Shown here one piece after another: positions 5,039 through 42,781 of a DNA stretch of 64,000 nt (positions within the stretch are counted from its first letter, which is position 1; each line of letters opens with the position of its first letter). This DNA comes from Sphingomonas sp. BT-65 (GTDB lineage: Bacteria > Pseudomonadota > Alphaproteobacteria > Sphingomonadales > Sphingomonadaceae). Under the pieces are notes generated by a model. It ran no database searches. It was given only the letters and a program-made list of their open reading frames with translations, and was not told where the DNA came from. The stretch covers positions 1 to 64,000 of the forward strand of contig NZ_JAPCIA010000002.1 of the NCBI RefSeq assembly GCF_026107375.2, read 5' to 3'. The position numbers and the translations under genes were made by a program.

Positions 5039-5749
5039 ATGACCGACAAGCAATTCACCGGGCGCGCCGCGCTCGTCACCGGCGCGAGCCGCGGCATCGG
5101 CGCGGCGACCGCCACGGCGCTCGCCGCGCAGGGCGCACACGTCATCCTCACCGCGCGCACTGCAGGCGGGCTCGAGGAAGTCGAGGAGGCGATCCACGCC
5201 GCCGGCGGCACCGCGACGATCGCCCCGATGGACCTGCTCGAGACCGACTCGATCCCCCGCCTCGCCGCAGCGGTGGCCGAGCGCTGGGGACAGCTCGACA
5301 TCCTGGTGCTCAACGCCGCCGCGCTCGGCTCGCTCGCGGCGATCGCCGCGTTCGATCCCAAGGAAGTGGCCAAGACGCTGGCACTCAACGTCAGCGCGCA
5401 GGCGGCGCTGCTCGGCGCGTTCGATCCGCTGCTGCGCAAGGCCGAGGCGGGACGCGTGATCGGCCTCACCTCAACCGTCGCGCGCAAGCCGCGCGCCTTC
5501 TGGGGCCTCTATGGCGCGACCAAGGCGGCGTTCGAGAATCTGGTGCTGAGCTATGGCGAGGAAGTGCGCAACCTGACCCAGGTGCGCGTCGCCTTGCTCA
5601 ACCCCGGCGCCACGCGCACCAGGATGCGCGCCCGCGCCTATCCGGGTGAAACACCCGAGAGCGTCAAGCCGCCGGAGGTAGTGGCGGATCGCATCGTCGC
5701 GTTGCTCGGCGAGGATTTCGAGACGGGCGCGTTCGAGACGCTCGACTAG
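5039..5749 (+). CDS. short-chain dehydrogenase/reductase
   Basis: NAD(P)-dependent oxidoreductase of the classical SDR family, 236 residues. The cofactor motif TGASRGIG is at residues 14-21, NAA follows near residue 93, and the catalytic S...YGATK block is present. The substrate cannot be read from the sequence. The start lies 5 bases after the purF stop, so the two genes are probably co-transcribed, a layout common in sphingomonads. The 3' end overlaps the convergent protease-endonuclease gene by 4 bases. Confidence 0.93.
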   Translation: MTDKQFTGRAALVTGASRGIGAATATALAAQGAHVILTARTAGGLEEVEEAIHAAGGTATIAPMDLLETDSIPRLAAAVAERWGQLDILVLNAAALGSLAAIAAFDPKEVAKTLALNVSAQAALLGAFDPLLRKAEAGRVIGLTSTVARKPRAFWGLYGATKAAFENLVLSYGEEVRNLTQVRVALLNPGATRTRMRARAYPGETPESVKPPEVVADRIVALLGEDFETGAFETLD

Positions 5750-7641
5750 CGGATATCGGCGTCGAACAGCGGGCCGAAGTCGAGGCCGGTCAAGCGCGCG
5801 ATCTCGCGCAGCGGCGTTGGGCCGCTCGACGCGGGGAAGCTGTAGGGCGCCTCCCGGATCACCACCCGTTCCACCTCGCGCGTCTGCCACAGCAGATAGC
5901 CGGCCGAACGCAACCGCCCGCCTTGCTCGAACGCGACGATCTTCCAGAACGCGCGCGGGATCTTGACGCCCTTGACCAGCGGGTCGCGCGGATCGAGCAC
6001 GGGGCCGGTGAACACCGAGACGCGACGGTCCTGCGTATTGGTGGTGTTGAGGACCAGATCCTCGAGATCGCTCCAATTGCTCTGATCGCGGGTGAGCGGG
6101 GTGAGGCGATGCCAGCGCTCCTCCTGCGGCGAGCAGTTGGTCATGTAGAAGGTATCGTCATTGGCGATGCGCGGCGTGCGCAGGACATCGCCCGGCGGCG
6201 CCCATACCGGATCGAGCCGGCGCACGAGATGACCGAAATCGAACGAGGAGAGGTCGTAGAGGCGCGGGCCGAGCTGGTCGGCCTCGGCGATGCGGTCGTC
6301 GAACATCCATTTGTCCGACGCCGCCTCGGGCTGGATGCCGGGTTCGAGCGGGCGATCGGGATCGCGGTCCTTGCGGCCAAGCGCCATCATGCGCGAGCCA
6401 TCGATGTTGACCGCGGTGAACAGCGCCAGCTTGCGCGACATCGACATCACGATCGAGAAATGCTGATAGTTCAGCACATGGCCCGATCCGTCGAGCAACG
6501 GCGTCACATCCGACTCGAGCCAGTCGGGCACGAAATCGTCGATCGGAACGGCAAGGTCACCGCCGCCCAAGAAATCGGCCCGATAGCCCTCGCGCGGGCC
6601 GACCGGCTTGACGCGGACATTGGTCCACCGGCTTTCGAGCACCGTCGCGTCGCCGTCGCCATCACCCGCTAGCACAGTCGGCGCCGCGGGACGGCCATTG
6701 CCCTGGACGCTCGGACTGTTGAGCAACTCGAGCGCGGCAGCCGCCTGCTCGGCCCCTGCGGACAGTTCGATGCCGGTCTCCAATGCCTTCAGGATCGCGC
6801 TGATCCGGATCCCACGGTTGTGCAGTTCCGGCCGGCCCTTGGTCATCCGCCCGGTCTCGATCGCGGCATGGTGCAGCGCGACGAGCTGCCAGTAGCGGTT
6901 GAACACCGGCGAGCCCGACGATCCGTAATCGGTGTCGTTGGTGTAGAGGATGTAGGGCGCCTGATCGTCGCGGAACACGCACTGGCTCTCGAACAGGCAG
7001 ATCAACTTCATCTGGCCGTCGGGATGCTGCAGCACGATCGTCGGCTGGCCCTCGAGGATCTTGTGGCGCTTGGCGTCCATCGGGAGCCAGCCCTGCGCGG
7101 CGAGCTCGCCGGGGCCGCCATCCTCGGTCGGACGGACCGCCACGAGCGTGAAGTCACACTGGTCCTGAGGCGAGGTGATGAACAGCCGCTCCGGTTCCAG
7201 CAGGAAGCGGCGCTTCGGCAGCGGCTGTTCATCGGCATCGAGCTCATAGCCGAACTCGGCGATCGCCTCGGCCGCGGCATCGGCGCTCGGCAACACGTGA
7301 TTGTTGGTGATCAGCAGGCCGGGCGCGACGAGGAAGCCGGTGCCGAGATGCCGCGGACCGAAATCCACGAGCCGGCATACGGCGCGCGACGCACGCATGC
7401 CGCGCTCCAGGAAGTTGACTGGCGCCTTGTCGTCCGAGCCGACGCTCGCCTCGAACCGCCCTTCCGCGACGGTCGCGTGCCGCGCATGGGCGATGGCTTC
7501 CTCGCGCGGCCGGGCCTCGATCGGCCCCTCACGCTCGGCCGCGTCGACCCGTTGCTGGATCTCGTCTGCCTTGTCCTCGATATAGGCGCGCGCCTCGGCG
7601 TTCAGTTCGCCCTGCGCATCCTCGACCCGTTTGTTGAGCAT
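5746..7641 (-). CDS. trypsin-like protease fused to DNA/RNA non-specific endonuclease
   Basis: A 631-residue two-domain protein with no signal peptide. The N-terminus (1-60) is charged and probably helical. Residues 90-260 form a trypsin-like peptidase: His115 in ITNNHVL, Asp163 in QCDFTLV and Ser242 in GSSGSPVF. Residues about 340-600 form an EndoG/NucA-type nuclease: His471 in FDFGHLVRR replaces the usual DRGH context, and Asn502 in YMTNCSPQ fits the metal ligand. Both active sites look complete. No immunity gene or secretion signal is adjacent; the gene stands alone between a convergent SDR and an alpha/beta hydrolase. A role in stress or phage-triggered self-destruction, or in macromolecule turnover, is possible but is only inference. 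Confidence 0.85.
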   Translation of the reverse strand: MLNKRVEDAQGELNAEARAYIEDKADEIQQRVDAAEREGPIEARPREEAIAHARHATVAEGRFEASVGSDDKAPVNFLERGMRASRAVCRLVDFGPRHLGTGFLVAPGLLITNNHVLPSADAAAEAIAEFGYELDADEQPLPKRRFLLEPERLFITSPQDQCDFTLVAVRPTEDGGPGELAAQGWLPMDAKRHKILEGQPTIVLQHPDGQMKLICLFESQCVFRDDQAPYILYTNDTDYGSSGSPVFNRYWQLVALHHAAIETGRMTKGRPELHNRGIRISAILKALETGIELSAGAEQAAAALELLNSPSVQGNGRPAAPTVLAGDGDGDATVLESRWTNVRVKPVGPREGYRADFLGGGDLAVPIDDFVPDWLESDVTPLLDGSGHVLNYQHFSIVMSMSRKLALFTAVNIDGSRMMALGRKDRDPDRPLEPGIQPEAASDKWMFDDRIAEADQLGPRLYDLSSFDFGHLVRRLDPVWAPPGDVLRTPRIANDDTFYMTNCSPQEERWHRLTPLTRDQSNWSDLEDLVLNTTNTQDRRVSVFTGPVLDPRDPLVKGVKIPRAFWKIVAFEQGGRLRSAGYLLWQTREVERVVIREAPYSFPASSGPTPLREIARLTGLDFGPLFDADIR

Positions 7642-7733
7642 CGCGGAGGTCCTCCCCGGCTCATCTCCCTACGCCCCTGCCACGACTCTTCCATGACGCG
7701 GGCGGCGAATAGGTCCGGAACGGGTCGATGCGG

Positions 7734-8624
7734 TCACCCCGCCAGGAACGCCTTCACCTCTGCCTGGAAGAACGGCGCGTTGTCCCACATGATGAAGTGC
7801 GCCGAGTTCGGCACGCGCTTCAGCACCGCGCCTTTCAGCGGGGCGTAGGACATCTGGTAATAGCCATCCATCTGCGCATCGGTCACCGGCGCGCCCTTGG
7901 GCGAGACGTAGAGCACGACGGTCTTGGCGGTGATCTTCGACAGTTCGGGGATCAGGTTGGTCATCACCAGTTCGCCATAGGCGCGCGCCGAGACGTCGCG
8001 GTCGGACTTCATCGCATCGTCGAGCGCGCCGGCGCGCATGTTTTCGGTCGCGACCATGCTGGCGATCGTGCCTTCGAGCTGCTTGGCATAGGCATCGGCC
8101 GGTGAGGTGCGCATGCCGTTCATGATCCCGTCGGCGATCGGCTTGAGCGTCGCCGGCGTCGCGTTGGGCCCGCCGAACATCGCGCCCATGAAGGGGAACA
8201 TGTCGACGATCATCAGCTTGGACACGCTCGCGGGGTGGCGAGCGGCGAGCATCATGCCCATCGTCCCGCCCATCGAATGGCCGATCACTGCGACGGGCCC
8301 AAGCTTCTGCTCGGCGATGTAGCGCGCGATCTCCTCGGCCACCGGCGCGGCGACGTCGCCCGCGGTGTTGCCGCCCTTGTCGGTGCCGGCGAACCCATGG
8401 ACCTGGACCTTGTGCCAGCGATATCCGGGCACCGCCGCGATCATCTCCTTCCACACCCGCGGCGAGGAGGAGAGGCCGGGGATCAGGATCACGTCCTTGC
8501 CCTTCCCTTCCACCGTCACGGTGATGCGGGTGGAGGTGAAATCCTTCGCCGTGGCGGGCGCGGGCAATAGCGCTGCAGTCAGCAGCATGGCGAAGAAGGC
8601 GAACAGGCCGCGGCGGTGAATCAT
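7734..8624 (-). CDS. exported alpha/beta hydrolase
   Basis: 296 residues with a signal peptide (MIHRRGLFAFFAMLLTAALL, cleavage after about Ala26). The alpha/beta-hydrolase fold shows the nucleophile elbow GHSMGG (Ser117), an oxyanion region ILIPGLSSSP near residue 47, and the late His276 in SAHFIMW. Likely a periplasmic esterase or related hydrolase; the substrate is unknown. It is followed on the same strand by nothing recognisable before the nuclease gene. The spacing to the 142-residue gene upstream is small (26 bases), so they may be co-transcribed. Confidence 0.9.
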   Translation of the reverse strand: MIHRRGLFAFFAMLLTAALLPAPATAKDFTSTRITVTVEGKGKDVILIPGLSSSPRVWKEMIAAVPGYRWHKVQVHGFAGTDKGGNTAGDVAAPVAEEIARYIAEQKLGPVAVIGHSMGGTMGMMLAARHPASVSKLMIVDMFPFMGAMFGGPNATPATLKPIADGIMNGMRTSPADAYAKQLEGTIASMVATENMRAGALDDAMKSDRDVSARAYGELVMTNLIPELSKITAKTVVLYVSPKGAPVTDAQMDGYYQMSYAPLKGAVLKRVPNSAHFIMWDNAPFFQAEVKAFLAG

Positions 8625-11112: not shown

Positions 11113-12111
11113 ATGGCGATTGCGCCCGCCCTGATCGACCGCCACGGCCGCACGATCCGCTACCTGCGGGTTTCGGTGACGGATCGCTGCGACCTGCGCT
11201 GCCGCTATTGCATGGCGGAGAAAATGACCTTCCTGCCGCGTGAGCAACTGCTCGCGCTGGAGGAGATCGCGCTGATCGCCGAGCGCTTCATCGCGCGCGG
11301 CGTGACCAAGATCCGGTTGACCGGCGGCGAACCGCTCGTCCGCCGCGACGCGATCGACCTGGTGTGGCGGCTTGGCCGGCAGGTTGGGCACGGTCTCGAC
11401 GAGCTTACGATGACCACCAACGGCACGCGGCTCGCCGAGCATGCCGGGACGCTCGCCGATGCCGGAGTGCGGCGGATCAACGTCAGCCTCGACAGCCGCG
11501 ATCCTGCCACCTTCCGCCACATCACACGCCATGGCGATGTCGCCCAGGTGCTCGACGGGATCAGCGCGGCACGCGCCGCCGGGCTCGCGGTCAAGATCAA
11601 CATGGTCGCGCTCAAGGGGCTGAACGAGCACGAGATTCCATCCATACTCGAATGGGCGGGCACGAACGGCATGGACCTGACCCTGATCGAGACGATGCCG
11701 CTCGGCGCGATCGACGAGGACCGCGCCGACCGCTTCCTGCCTTTGACGGAGGTGTTCGAGACGCTGTCGCAGCGCTTCACCCTGATCCGCGACCCGCATT
11801 CGAGCGGTGGCCCGGCGCGCTACTGGCGTGTCGCCGAGACCGGCGCACGGCTCGGCCTGATCTCTCCGCTCACCGGCAATTTCTGCGAAAGCTGCAACCG
11901 CGTGCGGCTGACCACCGAGGGCAAGCTGTTCACCTGCCTCGGCCATGAAGACCAGGTCGACCTCAAGGCCGCAATCCGCACCGGCGGACTCGCCGCGGTC
12001 GATGCGGCGATCGACGCCGCGCTCGCCGCCAAGCCCGCGCGCCACGACTTCAGCGTCGAGCGCGGCGCGGCGCCCGCCGTGGGCCGCCATATGAGCGTGA
12101 CCGGCGGATGA
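11113..12111 (+). CDS. moaA: GTP 3',8-cyclase (molybdenum cofactor synthesis)
   Basis: Radical-SAM enzyme that starts molybdopterin synthesis by rearranging GTP. The first 4Fe-4S cluster site is CDLRCRYC (CxxxCxxC). The second cluster site is near the C-terminus, CESCNRVRL followed by LFTC. The 332-residue length is typical, and the chain ends in the Gly-Gly tail needed for activity. The 51-base gap to the divergent EAL gene is too short for a moco riboswitch. The stop overlaps the nadK start (ATGA). No other moa gene is in the window. Confidence 0.97.
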
Positions 12112-41993: not shown

Positions 41994-42111
41994 CGCTGAA
42001 CGGCGGACGGTGCGGACATAGGGCGGGAGTCGGCTTCCTCCAAGTCCTAAAGAGAGGGTGACGCCTCAGCGACAAGCCAAGATACGCGCGTGGACAAAGC
42101 GGCAGCTTTGG

Positions 42112-42129
42112 CATATGCCATGTCATATG
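42112..42129. promoter_or_regulatory. candidate VapB operator
   Basis: Two CATATG palindromes (42112-42117 and 42124-42129), 12 bp apart centre to centre, sit just upstream of vapB. This is the usual position and symmetry for toxin-antitoxin autoregulation. Confidence 0.5.
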
Positions 42130-42143
42130 CAAGGAGCACCGCG

Positions 42144-42377
42144 ATGAATGCCGAACGCCATGTGAGATTGTTCCGCAACGGACGCAGCCAGGCTGTGCGC
42201 ATCCCCCGAGAGTTCGAACTGCCGGGAACGGACGCCGTAATGCGCAAGGAGGGCGGGAAGCTCATCATCGAGGCGGCACCGCCCAAATCGCTCCTTGCGC
42301 TGCTGGCGGAGTTGGAACCGGTCGAAGAGGATTTCGCACCGATCGACGATCTGCCGGCTGAGCCGGTCGATATCTGA
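42144..42377 (+). CDS. vapB: VapB-type antitoxin (AbrB/MazE fold)
   Basis: 77 residues, starting MNAERHVRLFRNGRSQAVRI. The swapped-hairpin AbrB motif (VRLFRNGRSQAVRIPREFEL) binds DNA, and the acidic C-terminus would occupy the toxin. AGGAG precedes the ATG. The TGA stop shares one base with the ATG of vapC (TGATG), so toxin translation depends on that of the antitoxin. Confidence 0.93.
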   Translation: MNAERHVRLFRNGRSQAVRIPREFELPGTDAVMRKEGGKLIIEAAPPKSLLALLAELEPVEEDFAPIDDLPAEPVDI

Positions 42378-42781
42378 TGCGCTACCTGCTCGACACCAAC
42401 ATCGTTTCGGACCTTATTCGTAACCCCCAGGGAGGGGTTACGAGGCGGATCACCGATGTCGGGGAGGCGTTAGTCTGCACAAGCGTCGTCGTTGCGGCCG
42501 AGTTGCGATTTGGAGCGGCGAAGCTCGGATCGGCGCGCCTTACAAAGCAAATGGCGCTGGTGCTGGATCGGCTCGACGTGCTGCCGCTCGATGCGCCGGC
42601 CGACGAACTCTACGGCGATTTGCGCGCGCGGCTCGAGGCTGCCGGCACGCCGATCGGCGCCAATGACATGCTGATCGCTGCGCACGCCATGTCGCTCGAA
42701 TGCACGATCGTCACAGACAATATGCGCGAATTTTCCCGGATCGATGGCCTCGCTTGCGAAAACTGGCTGCGTCCGGATTGA
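42377..42781 (+). CDS. vapC: VapC-type PIN ribonuclease toxin
   Basis: 134 residues, PIN domain. Acidic metal ligands at Asp6 (YLLDTNIVSDL), Glu42 (AAELRFG), Asp97 (GANDMLIAAH) and Asp114 (TDNMREF) are all present, so the toxin should be active. VapC proteins cut specific tRNAs or rRNA when free of antitoxin. Translationally coupled to vapB. Confidence 0.95.
   Translation: MRYLLDTNIVSDLIRNPQGGVTRRITDVGEALVCTSVVVAAELRFGAAKLGSARLTKQMALVLDRLDVLPLDAPADELYGDLRARLEAAGTPIGANDMLIAAHAMSLECTIVTDNMREFSRIDGLACENWLRPD

Follow-up and report, generated by a model that had tools for sequence, protein, structure and literature searches.

A solitary trypsin-NucA fusion protein of Sphingomonas sp. BT-65 combines an altered nuclease site with an unsubstituted protease triad

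Proteins pairing a NucA-type endonuclease with a trypsin-like peptidase, either fused or encoded in one operon, were predicted as 'System 3' (Kaur et al. 2020, PMC7159879), which is probably activated by a proteolytic cascade that deploys the nuclease (PMC7159879). The name 'NucA-trypsin systems' is used in PMC8195603. A trypsin-like effector recruited through EAD8 is described in PMC10907252, and protease-activated pro-nucleases are known from Hachiman and AVAST (PMC12799240). One member that has been studied by experiment is LypC of Caulobacter crescentus, the trypsin-linker-endonuclease protein of the CARD-NLR-like LypABC, without which the cells do not undergo the lysis that sets gene transfer agents free (PMC13236601, 2026). 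The peptidase mutation S296A abolishes lysis and the nuclease mutations H471A and N505A are without effect, while LypC deprived of its nuclease domain is an unstable protein (PMC13236601). In the open literature we found no experimental work on trypsin-NucA fusions beyond this study, most subscription papers being outside the scope of the search.

Here we analyzed a 64,000-nucleotide stretch of Sphingomonas sp. BT-65 (contig NZ_JAPCIA010000002.1), referred to as the window, which encodes one such fusion. The features of the locus are as follows.

5039..5749, plus strand: SDR-like oxidoreductase gene (family assigned by eye), convergent with the fusion gene and overlapping its end by 4 bp
5746..7641, minus strand: trypsin-NucA fusion gene, an open reading frame of 631 aa (Pfam PF13365 and PF01223; AlphaFold2 model)
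7417..7641, minus strand: N-terminal helical extension, residues 1-75 (helices 4-23, 25-38 and 46-53), with no visible signal peptide
6742..7416, minus strand: trypsin/V8-like serine protease domain, residues 76-300, with the triad H115/D163/S242 and Asp236 at Ser-6
6610..6741, minus strand: inter-domain linker, residues 301-344, with a conserved GRP and then a basic stretch
5749..6609, minus strand: EndoG/NucA-type beta-beta-alpha-Me nuclease domain, residues 345-631
6229..6240, minus strand: DFGH, residues 468-471 (canonical DRGH)
6076..6111, minus strand: His511 replacing the second catalytic Asn, then an insertion up to W523
7734..8624, minus strand: alpha/beta hydrolase with a signal-peptide-like N-terminus (by eye), upstream of the fusion gene

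A preliminary description had read the minus-strand frame at 5746-7641 as a two-domain protein. This is borne out by Pfam matches far above the cut-offs, to Trypsin_2 (residues 100-256, E 8.6e-17, 62.6 bits against a cut-off of 27.6) and to Endonuclease_NS (residues 384-624, E 1.5e-34, 120 bits against 23). The AlphaFold2 model has a mean pLDDT of 86.6 and a pTM of 0.58, and a structure search assigned the EndoG fold to the nuclease half. Autotaxin rows in that search were set aside as a likeness of the nuclease-like domain of Autotaxin, which is presumably all that these matches reflect. The gene is single-copy and is the sole Endonuclease_NS match in its genome. Directly 5' of the start codon, a palindrome, GGAGGACCTCC (window 7641-7665, minus strand), overlaps the likely Shine-Dalgarno sequence.

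The same description had taken the two domains to be ones that normally act apart, which calls for a qualification, the fusion being common: a protein search returned 1986 homologues at E<=0.001 among 7993 scored candidates, and both domains are present in all 120 listed homologues (120 of the 1986). A single-protein scan of genome contigs gave no confirmed relative; an alignment-based scan did find them, with at least 567 of 595 pattern-matched stretches encoding relatives, and among the best 80, which were kept, the fused family reaches Bacillota, actinobacteria, cyanobacteria and archaea such as Methanosarcina. The distribution of the family is patchy and sporadic. Within the window's family, 20 of the 298 genomes gave a match at 1e-20, and within its genus 9 of 62 gave one at 1e-10 (window genome included in both counts); four of these nine (G718, G686, G713 and G694) have nuclease-length frames only. 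In a class-wide search at 1e-60 the window genome was the sole match (1 of 385). Plasmid records matched in 86 of 72,556 cases at 1e-20, 37 of the 86 being predicted conjugative. The 37 pattern-matched stretches among IMG/VR viral contigs included no relative, and one of 50,697 phage records matched, with 25% identity over just 31% of the query. Nuclease relatives without the protease domain also occur in the same genus or family (L155, L156, L157, L135 and L132); inspected by eye, they show no obvious signal peptide. Further domains accompany some relatives: a 1094-aa protein (L107:8000-11284) has a GDSL-lipase-like domain ahead of the trypsin-NucA pair, and P0177, a 1022-aa protein from the LypC branch, has an alpha/beta hydrolase domain.

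The active site of the protease half is conserved without exception where it can be aligned. The complete triad of His115, Asp163 and Ser242 had been recognized earlier, and its residues are in the places given: among the 120 listed proteins (window protein included), H115 is His in 118 with gaps in the other two, D163 is Asp in 119 with one gap, and S242 is Ser in all, so that no substitution of the triad occurs at any aligned position. Asp236, at Ser-6, is likewise found in 120 of 120, at what we take to be the position of trypsin Asp189, the base of the S1 pocket. Because of this residue, the fusion protease would be expected to favor cleavage after Arg or Lys. The flavivirus NS3 protease also has an Asp at this position. 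Human FAM111A, which has been linked to antiviral or DNA-binding roles, was matched through a chain of 250 residues that spans the serine protease domain only. Membership in RT-Protease_XI was rejected, as the PADLOC matches (E 8.7e-4) cover the protease fold only.

The nuclease half presents a different picture. The alteration of DRGH to DFGH at residues 468-471, reported earlier, is confirmed, and among the 120 listed proteins position 469 is Arg in 53, Phe in 41, Tyr in 21 and another residue in five, giving 62 with Phe or Tyr. The change from Arg to Phe or Tyr maps to one event on a tree holding 38 of these Phe/Tyr proteins, on which three rows with other letters were left uncounted. The endonuclease core described previously is partly in place: H471 and N502, the latter aligned with human EndoG N163, are each present in 120 of 120 listed proteins, and E527 in 119. 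It is less complete than was claimed, as the second catalytic Asn (EndoG N172, LypC N505) is His511 in the window protein. This position is Asn in 106 and His in 14 of the 120, and these 14 proteins constitute the window clade, which also has an insertion and keeps H471, N502 and the triad. The distance from this position to the following tryptophan is 9-12 residues in the clade, whereas the remaining 50 rows compared have 3-5.

Mutations at the equivalent positions of human EndoG are costly. R139A, affecting the DRGH Arg, lowers kcat about 2500-fold while the apparent Km falls from 18.7 to 1.0 nM; mutations of N163 leave less than 0.01% of the activity, and N172A about 0.1% (PMC2653514). The EndoG study argues that magnesium is bound by His141 and not by N172 (PMC2653514). 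In a bacterial NucA, an Asn 31 residues past the general base is the only side chain that directly chelates Mg (PMC4220975), and from this spacing it is taken to be the equivalent of EndoG N172. Whichever view of the Mg ligand holds, two important nuclease positions differ in the window protein. HNH enzymes have a His at the metal-ligand place, so the nuclease need not have lost its activity, and His511 could still serve to bind the metal. Across the 14 members of the clade, identity to the window protein is 0.54-0.68 in the protease half and 0.54-0.66 in the nuclease half. As these values are similar, neither half looks decayed, and some function seems to maintain the nuclease half.

The preliminary description proposed a self-killing effector that destroys protein and nucleic acid jointly. 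The joint destruction is doubtful and may be wrong, because the nuclease site of the clade differs at two catalytic positions; LypC, moreover, needed its protease activity only (PMC13236601). The idea of self-destruction itself is plausible and is already in print for the NucA-trypsin kind. It fits the published prediction (PMC7159879) and the LypC experiments (PMC13236601), and some relatives have as neighbors a STAND/NLR ATPase, a protein of the CHAT or SLOG type, or other hydrolases, while no trigger, partner or defense gene was found at this locus. We therefore propose, as a reading about evenly poised between right and wrong, that the fusion is a stand-alone cytoplasmic NucA-trypsin (LypC-like) effector of conflict or lysis, led by its protease, with a nuclease half that would be either a modified enzyme or a regulator that binds nucleic acid. 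The protease would be held inactive until a cue from stress, phage or nucleic acid, and would then cut one or more cellular proteins, preferably after Arg or Lys, and perhaps also its own basic linker; this cutting would lead to cell death or lysis. The nuclease fold may be retained for binding, for stability or for slow or modified cleavage, and not to do most of the killing. The proposal is favored by the pattern of conservation, in which the triad and D236 are unsubstituted while the DRGH Arg and the second Asn vary, and, by analogy, by the LypC mutants, in which S296 is needed and H471 and N505 are not (PMC13236601). Against it, the searches described below found neither a LypA or LypB relative in the genome nor a defense gene near the fusion, and the near invariance of H471, N502 and E527 suggests that nuclease catalysis may matter.

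The linker bears on a second possibility. Residues 324-338 fall below a pLDDT of 50 in the model. Among the 120 listed proteins, a GRP motif is found in 14 of 14 members of the window clade, 42 of 48 other Phe/Tyr sequences, 3 of 53 with DRGH and one of the five with other letters. A basic motif (GRP...R/K-x-T-x-I/V), located just before the nuclease domain and separated from GRP by a variable stretch in the Phe/Tyr lineage, occurs in 11 of 14 and 33 of 48, respectively, and in 0 of 53 and 0 of 5 of the remaining groups. The motif of this lineage may serve for processing or docking. One could imagine that cleavage of the basic linker by the protease half frees an active endonuclease directed against host and phage nucleic acid, a self-activation that the poorly ordered linker, the confinement of the basic motif to Phe/Tyr sequences and the retention of H471, N502 and E527 would suit. 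An R-P bond such as that of GRP, on the other hand, is not readily cut by trypsin-like proteases. Although protease-activated pro-nucleases do exist, such as HamM, whose MBL fold is different (PMC12799240), the nuclease mutants of LypC still lyse (PMC13236601), and the positions of EndoG R139 and N172, both costly when mutated, are changed here (PMC2653514). On balance we consider such a self-activating nuclease a tentative alternative, less probable than a protease-led effector.

The same substitutions allow the nuclease half of the Phe/Tyr lineage to be viewed as a sensor, in which an EndoG fold that binds nucleic acid and barely cleaves it would switch on the fused protease upon meeting foreign or damaged DNA or RNA. 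The EndoG R139A enzyme, with its tighter apparent binding and little cutting (PMC2653514), offers an analogy, as does LypC, in which nuclease activity is dispensable and the domain is needed for stability (PMC13236601); the presence of Phe or Tyr at the DRGH Arg in 62 of the 120 listed proteins, with a single origin on the tree that included 38 of them, points in the same direction. The general-base His and the first Asn are invariant in the 120, and a metal-binding His511 could preserve cleavage, both of which speak against a purely sensing role. We regard the sensor as unlikely; if true, it would make the fusion a one-protein suicide protease activated by nucleic acid.

A different alternative places the protein outside the cytoplasm, as an exported or periplasmic turnover enzyme that hydrolyzes nutrients or biofilm. 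Most PDB sequence matches of the protease half are to proteases known as secreted, and the matches of the nuclease half include NucA, which is secreted too; the upstream hydrolase has a signal-peptide-like N-terminus by eye, and one relative, L115 on a Cupriavidus plasmid, lies between gspF and gspG in a type II secretion gene cluster. The absence of a signal peptide from the fusion protein, claimed earlier, is nonetheless upheld by hydropathy, the only measure used for this assessment: the N-terminus lacks a hydrophobic stretch, with a best 12-residue value of -0.5 in the first 50 aa, and among the 120 listed relatives a peak above 2.0 in the first 50 aa is seen in only two, and any 19-residue peak above 1.8 in only three. 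LypC, for its part, acts in the lysis of its own cell (PMC13236601). An exported enzyme is thus highly improbable.

The neighbors of the fusion gene look like housekeeping genes; by eye, the wider surroundings include purF, catalase-peroxidase, moaA and NAD kinase. Neither reading of the open reading frames nor PADLOC, run on 28 of the 53 predicted ORFs of the window, revealed a defense, partner or trigger gene at the fusion locus. PADLOC returned only three pVip models with one member each, which were taken for a false match of a MoaA-like radical-SAM gene at 11113-12111, this assignment being made by eye. Farther away, at window 42090-42781, a small pair resembles an antitoxin and a PIN-domain toxin (by eye). 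The lypABC genes likewise lie outside any defense island, according to their authors (PMC13236601). One LypA-type and one LypB-type query, both from L147, a LypABC-like row in the same family, brought up no relative in the window genome, and only the genome of L147 itself, the positive control, matched among the 20 family-bearing genomes on which the queries were run; distant forms could escape this search, and the queries were named by gene order and domains rather than by comparison with C. crescentus LypA and LypB. The LypABC trigger should therefore not be assumed for the window protein. A search for EAD1 gave no match in the window genome, and its control also matched nowhere.

Comparison with four genomes of the same genus revealed that three of them preserve the order of the eight flanking genes and yield no 1e-10 match to the fusion gene, the alignments of the hydrolase and SDR genes being about 0.4 to 0.95 kb apart; the fourth does not show the flanking order and has only a 54% match to the hydrolase. 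This absence from the same site in three of the four relatives, the lack of any partner found, and the sporadic occurrence in family and genus counted above could indicate a horizontally moving cargo gene that has no trigger here, is locally inert and is heading for loss. Against such a remnant stand a full-length open frame, intact conserved residues, two halves alike in conservation across the 14 members and a third-position GC (0.86) close to that of its neighbors (0.87-0.91), and we judge this explanation very unlikely.

Across relatives, at 90 fused loci, we counted 42 same-strand neighbors within 150 bp, in 38 loci, and none in the other 52; a control set of 74 other genes had 52 such neighbors, and in both sets the ORFs were called by length, so some are spurious. 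Among the 25 of 39 neighbor families listed, peptidases account for at least ten of the 42 neighbors, and these come from 9 of the 90 loci: three S8, two M43, two C92, two astacin and one C1, one of the three S8 being taken as the CHAT-AAA-S8 protein of L078. Of the 107 control families, the 25 listed include no peptidase, but the control set has at least one annotated protease (L113:10801-11820), and the excess of peptidases beside fusion genes is indicative. Weak M12/M7 matches beside L138 and L139, under the curated cut-offs, were not counted.

Several individual loci may be recorded here. In Rhodococcus (L078:6699-12977) a CHAT-AAA-S8 protein, the fusion and an M43 metallopeptidase follow one another with gaps of 83 and 22 bp, and in L085 an M43-like gene comes after the fusion gene. 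In Phyllobacterium (L101:8864-13683) an S1/P1 nuclease (assigned by count and eye), the fusion and a PLD-family protein form an operon-like row, and on a Bradyrhizobium plasmid (L116:5830-10050) the fusion gene is followed by an S1/P1 nuclease and then a SLOG-family protein. In a single case, L050, a NACHT protein adjoins the fusion gene. Within the window's own family, L147:4590-11533 is an operon-like, LypABC-like row of a Trypsin_2 protein (589 aa), an AAA/TPR NLR-like protein (1068 aa) and, third, a LypC-type fusion (655 aa), the genes being 3 bp apart or overlapping by 4.

The relationship to LypC was examined through P0179, a 695-aa 'nuclease, putative' of Caulobacter vibrioides CB15 that fits LypC by residue numbering: of the offsets 0-59, only 33 places S, H and N at 296, 471 and 505. 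In BLASTP against the window protein, the nuclease half of P0179 is significant (32% over 297 columns) and the protease half is not; hhalign of the LypC family against the window family, in turn, covers both domains (468 columns, 26% identity, 100%, E 7.7e-83). A tree made by a quick method from the nuclease halves of 88 proteins (67 of the 120 listed window homologues and 21 of the 120 listed with P0179) has one branch (SH-aLRT 100) that separates the 21 LypC-like rows from the rest and another (99) that sets off the 14 rows of the window clade. By sequence, the window protein is a LypC relative outside the LypC clade.

Trypsin-nuclease fusions are widespread in bacteria and archaea, while the one experimental study found in the open literature reports the nuclease activity to be dispensable (PMC13236601). 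As far as the literature was searched, what is new here is a lineage of solitary genes in which the nuclease site has been rewritten and the protease left untouched, a natural combination that makes killing by proteolysis, by nucleolysis or by nuclease-fold sensing directly testable. How the protease stays off and turns on could be asked most simply of a single-gene version that has no NLR partners.

To conclude, the window protein combines features of several described systems. With the NucA-trypsin systems of Kaur 2020 it shares both core domains, NucA-type and trypsin-like, in fused form, whereas its locus showed no further peptidase gene, no STAND protein and no EAD1 partner. Its altered nuclease site is not mentioned for 'System 3' in the accessible part of that paper, which places such systems mostly in alphaproteobacteria (PMC7159879), while the fused family occurs also in Bacillota, actinobacteria, cyanobacteria and archaea. 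HamM and Avs1a follow a common logic of pairing protease and nuclease, although theirs is an MBL-type nuclease from a separate gene (PMC12799240) and the window protein has a fused NucA fold. From EndoG, CPS-6, the Serratia nuclease and Anabaena NucA it differs by the change of the DRGH Arg to Phe, and of the second Asn to His with an insertion. LypC has the trypsin-like domain, flexible linker and EndoNS in the same order and at a similar length; it keeps DRGH and LNQ, where the window protein has DFGH and His511 at the Asn505 equivalent, with His471 kept. A link to gene transfer agents, as for LypABC, was rejected, since GTA_TIM matched in the Caulobacter vibrioides control genome and not in the window genome. 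Finally, LypC is encoded beside lypA and lypB, whereas the window gene is flanked by the SDR-like and alpha/beta hydrolase genes.
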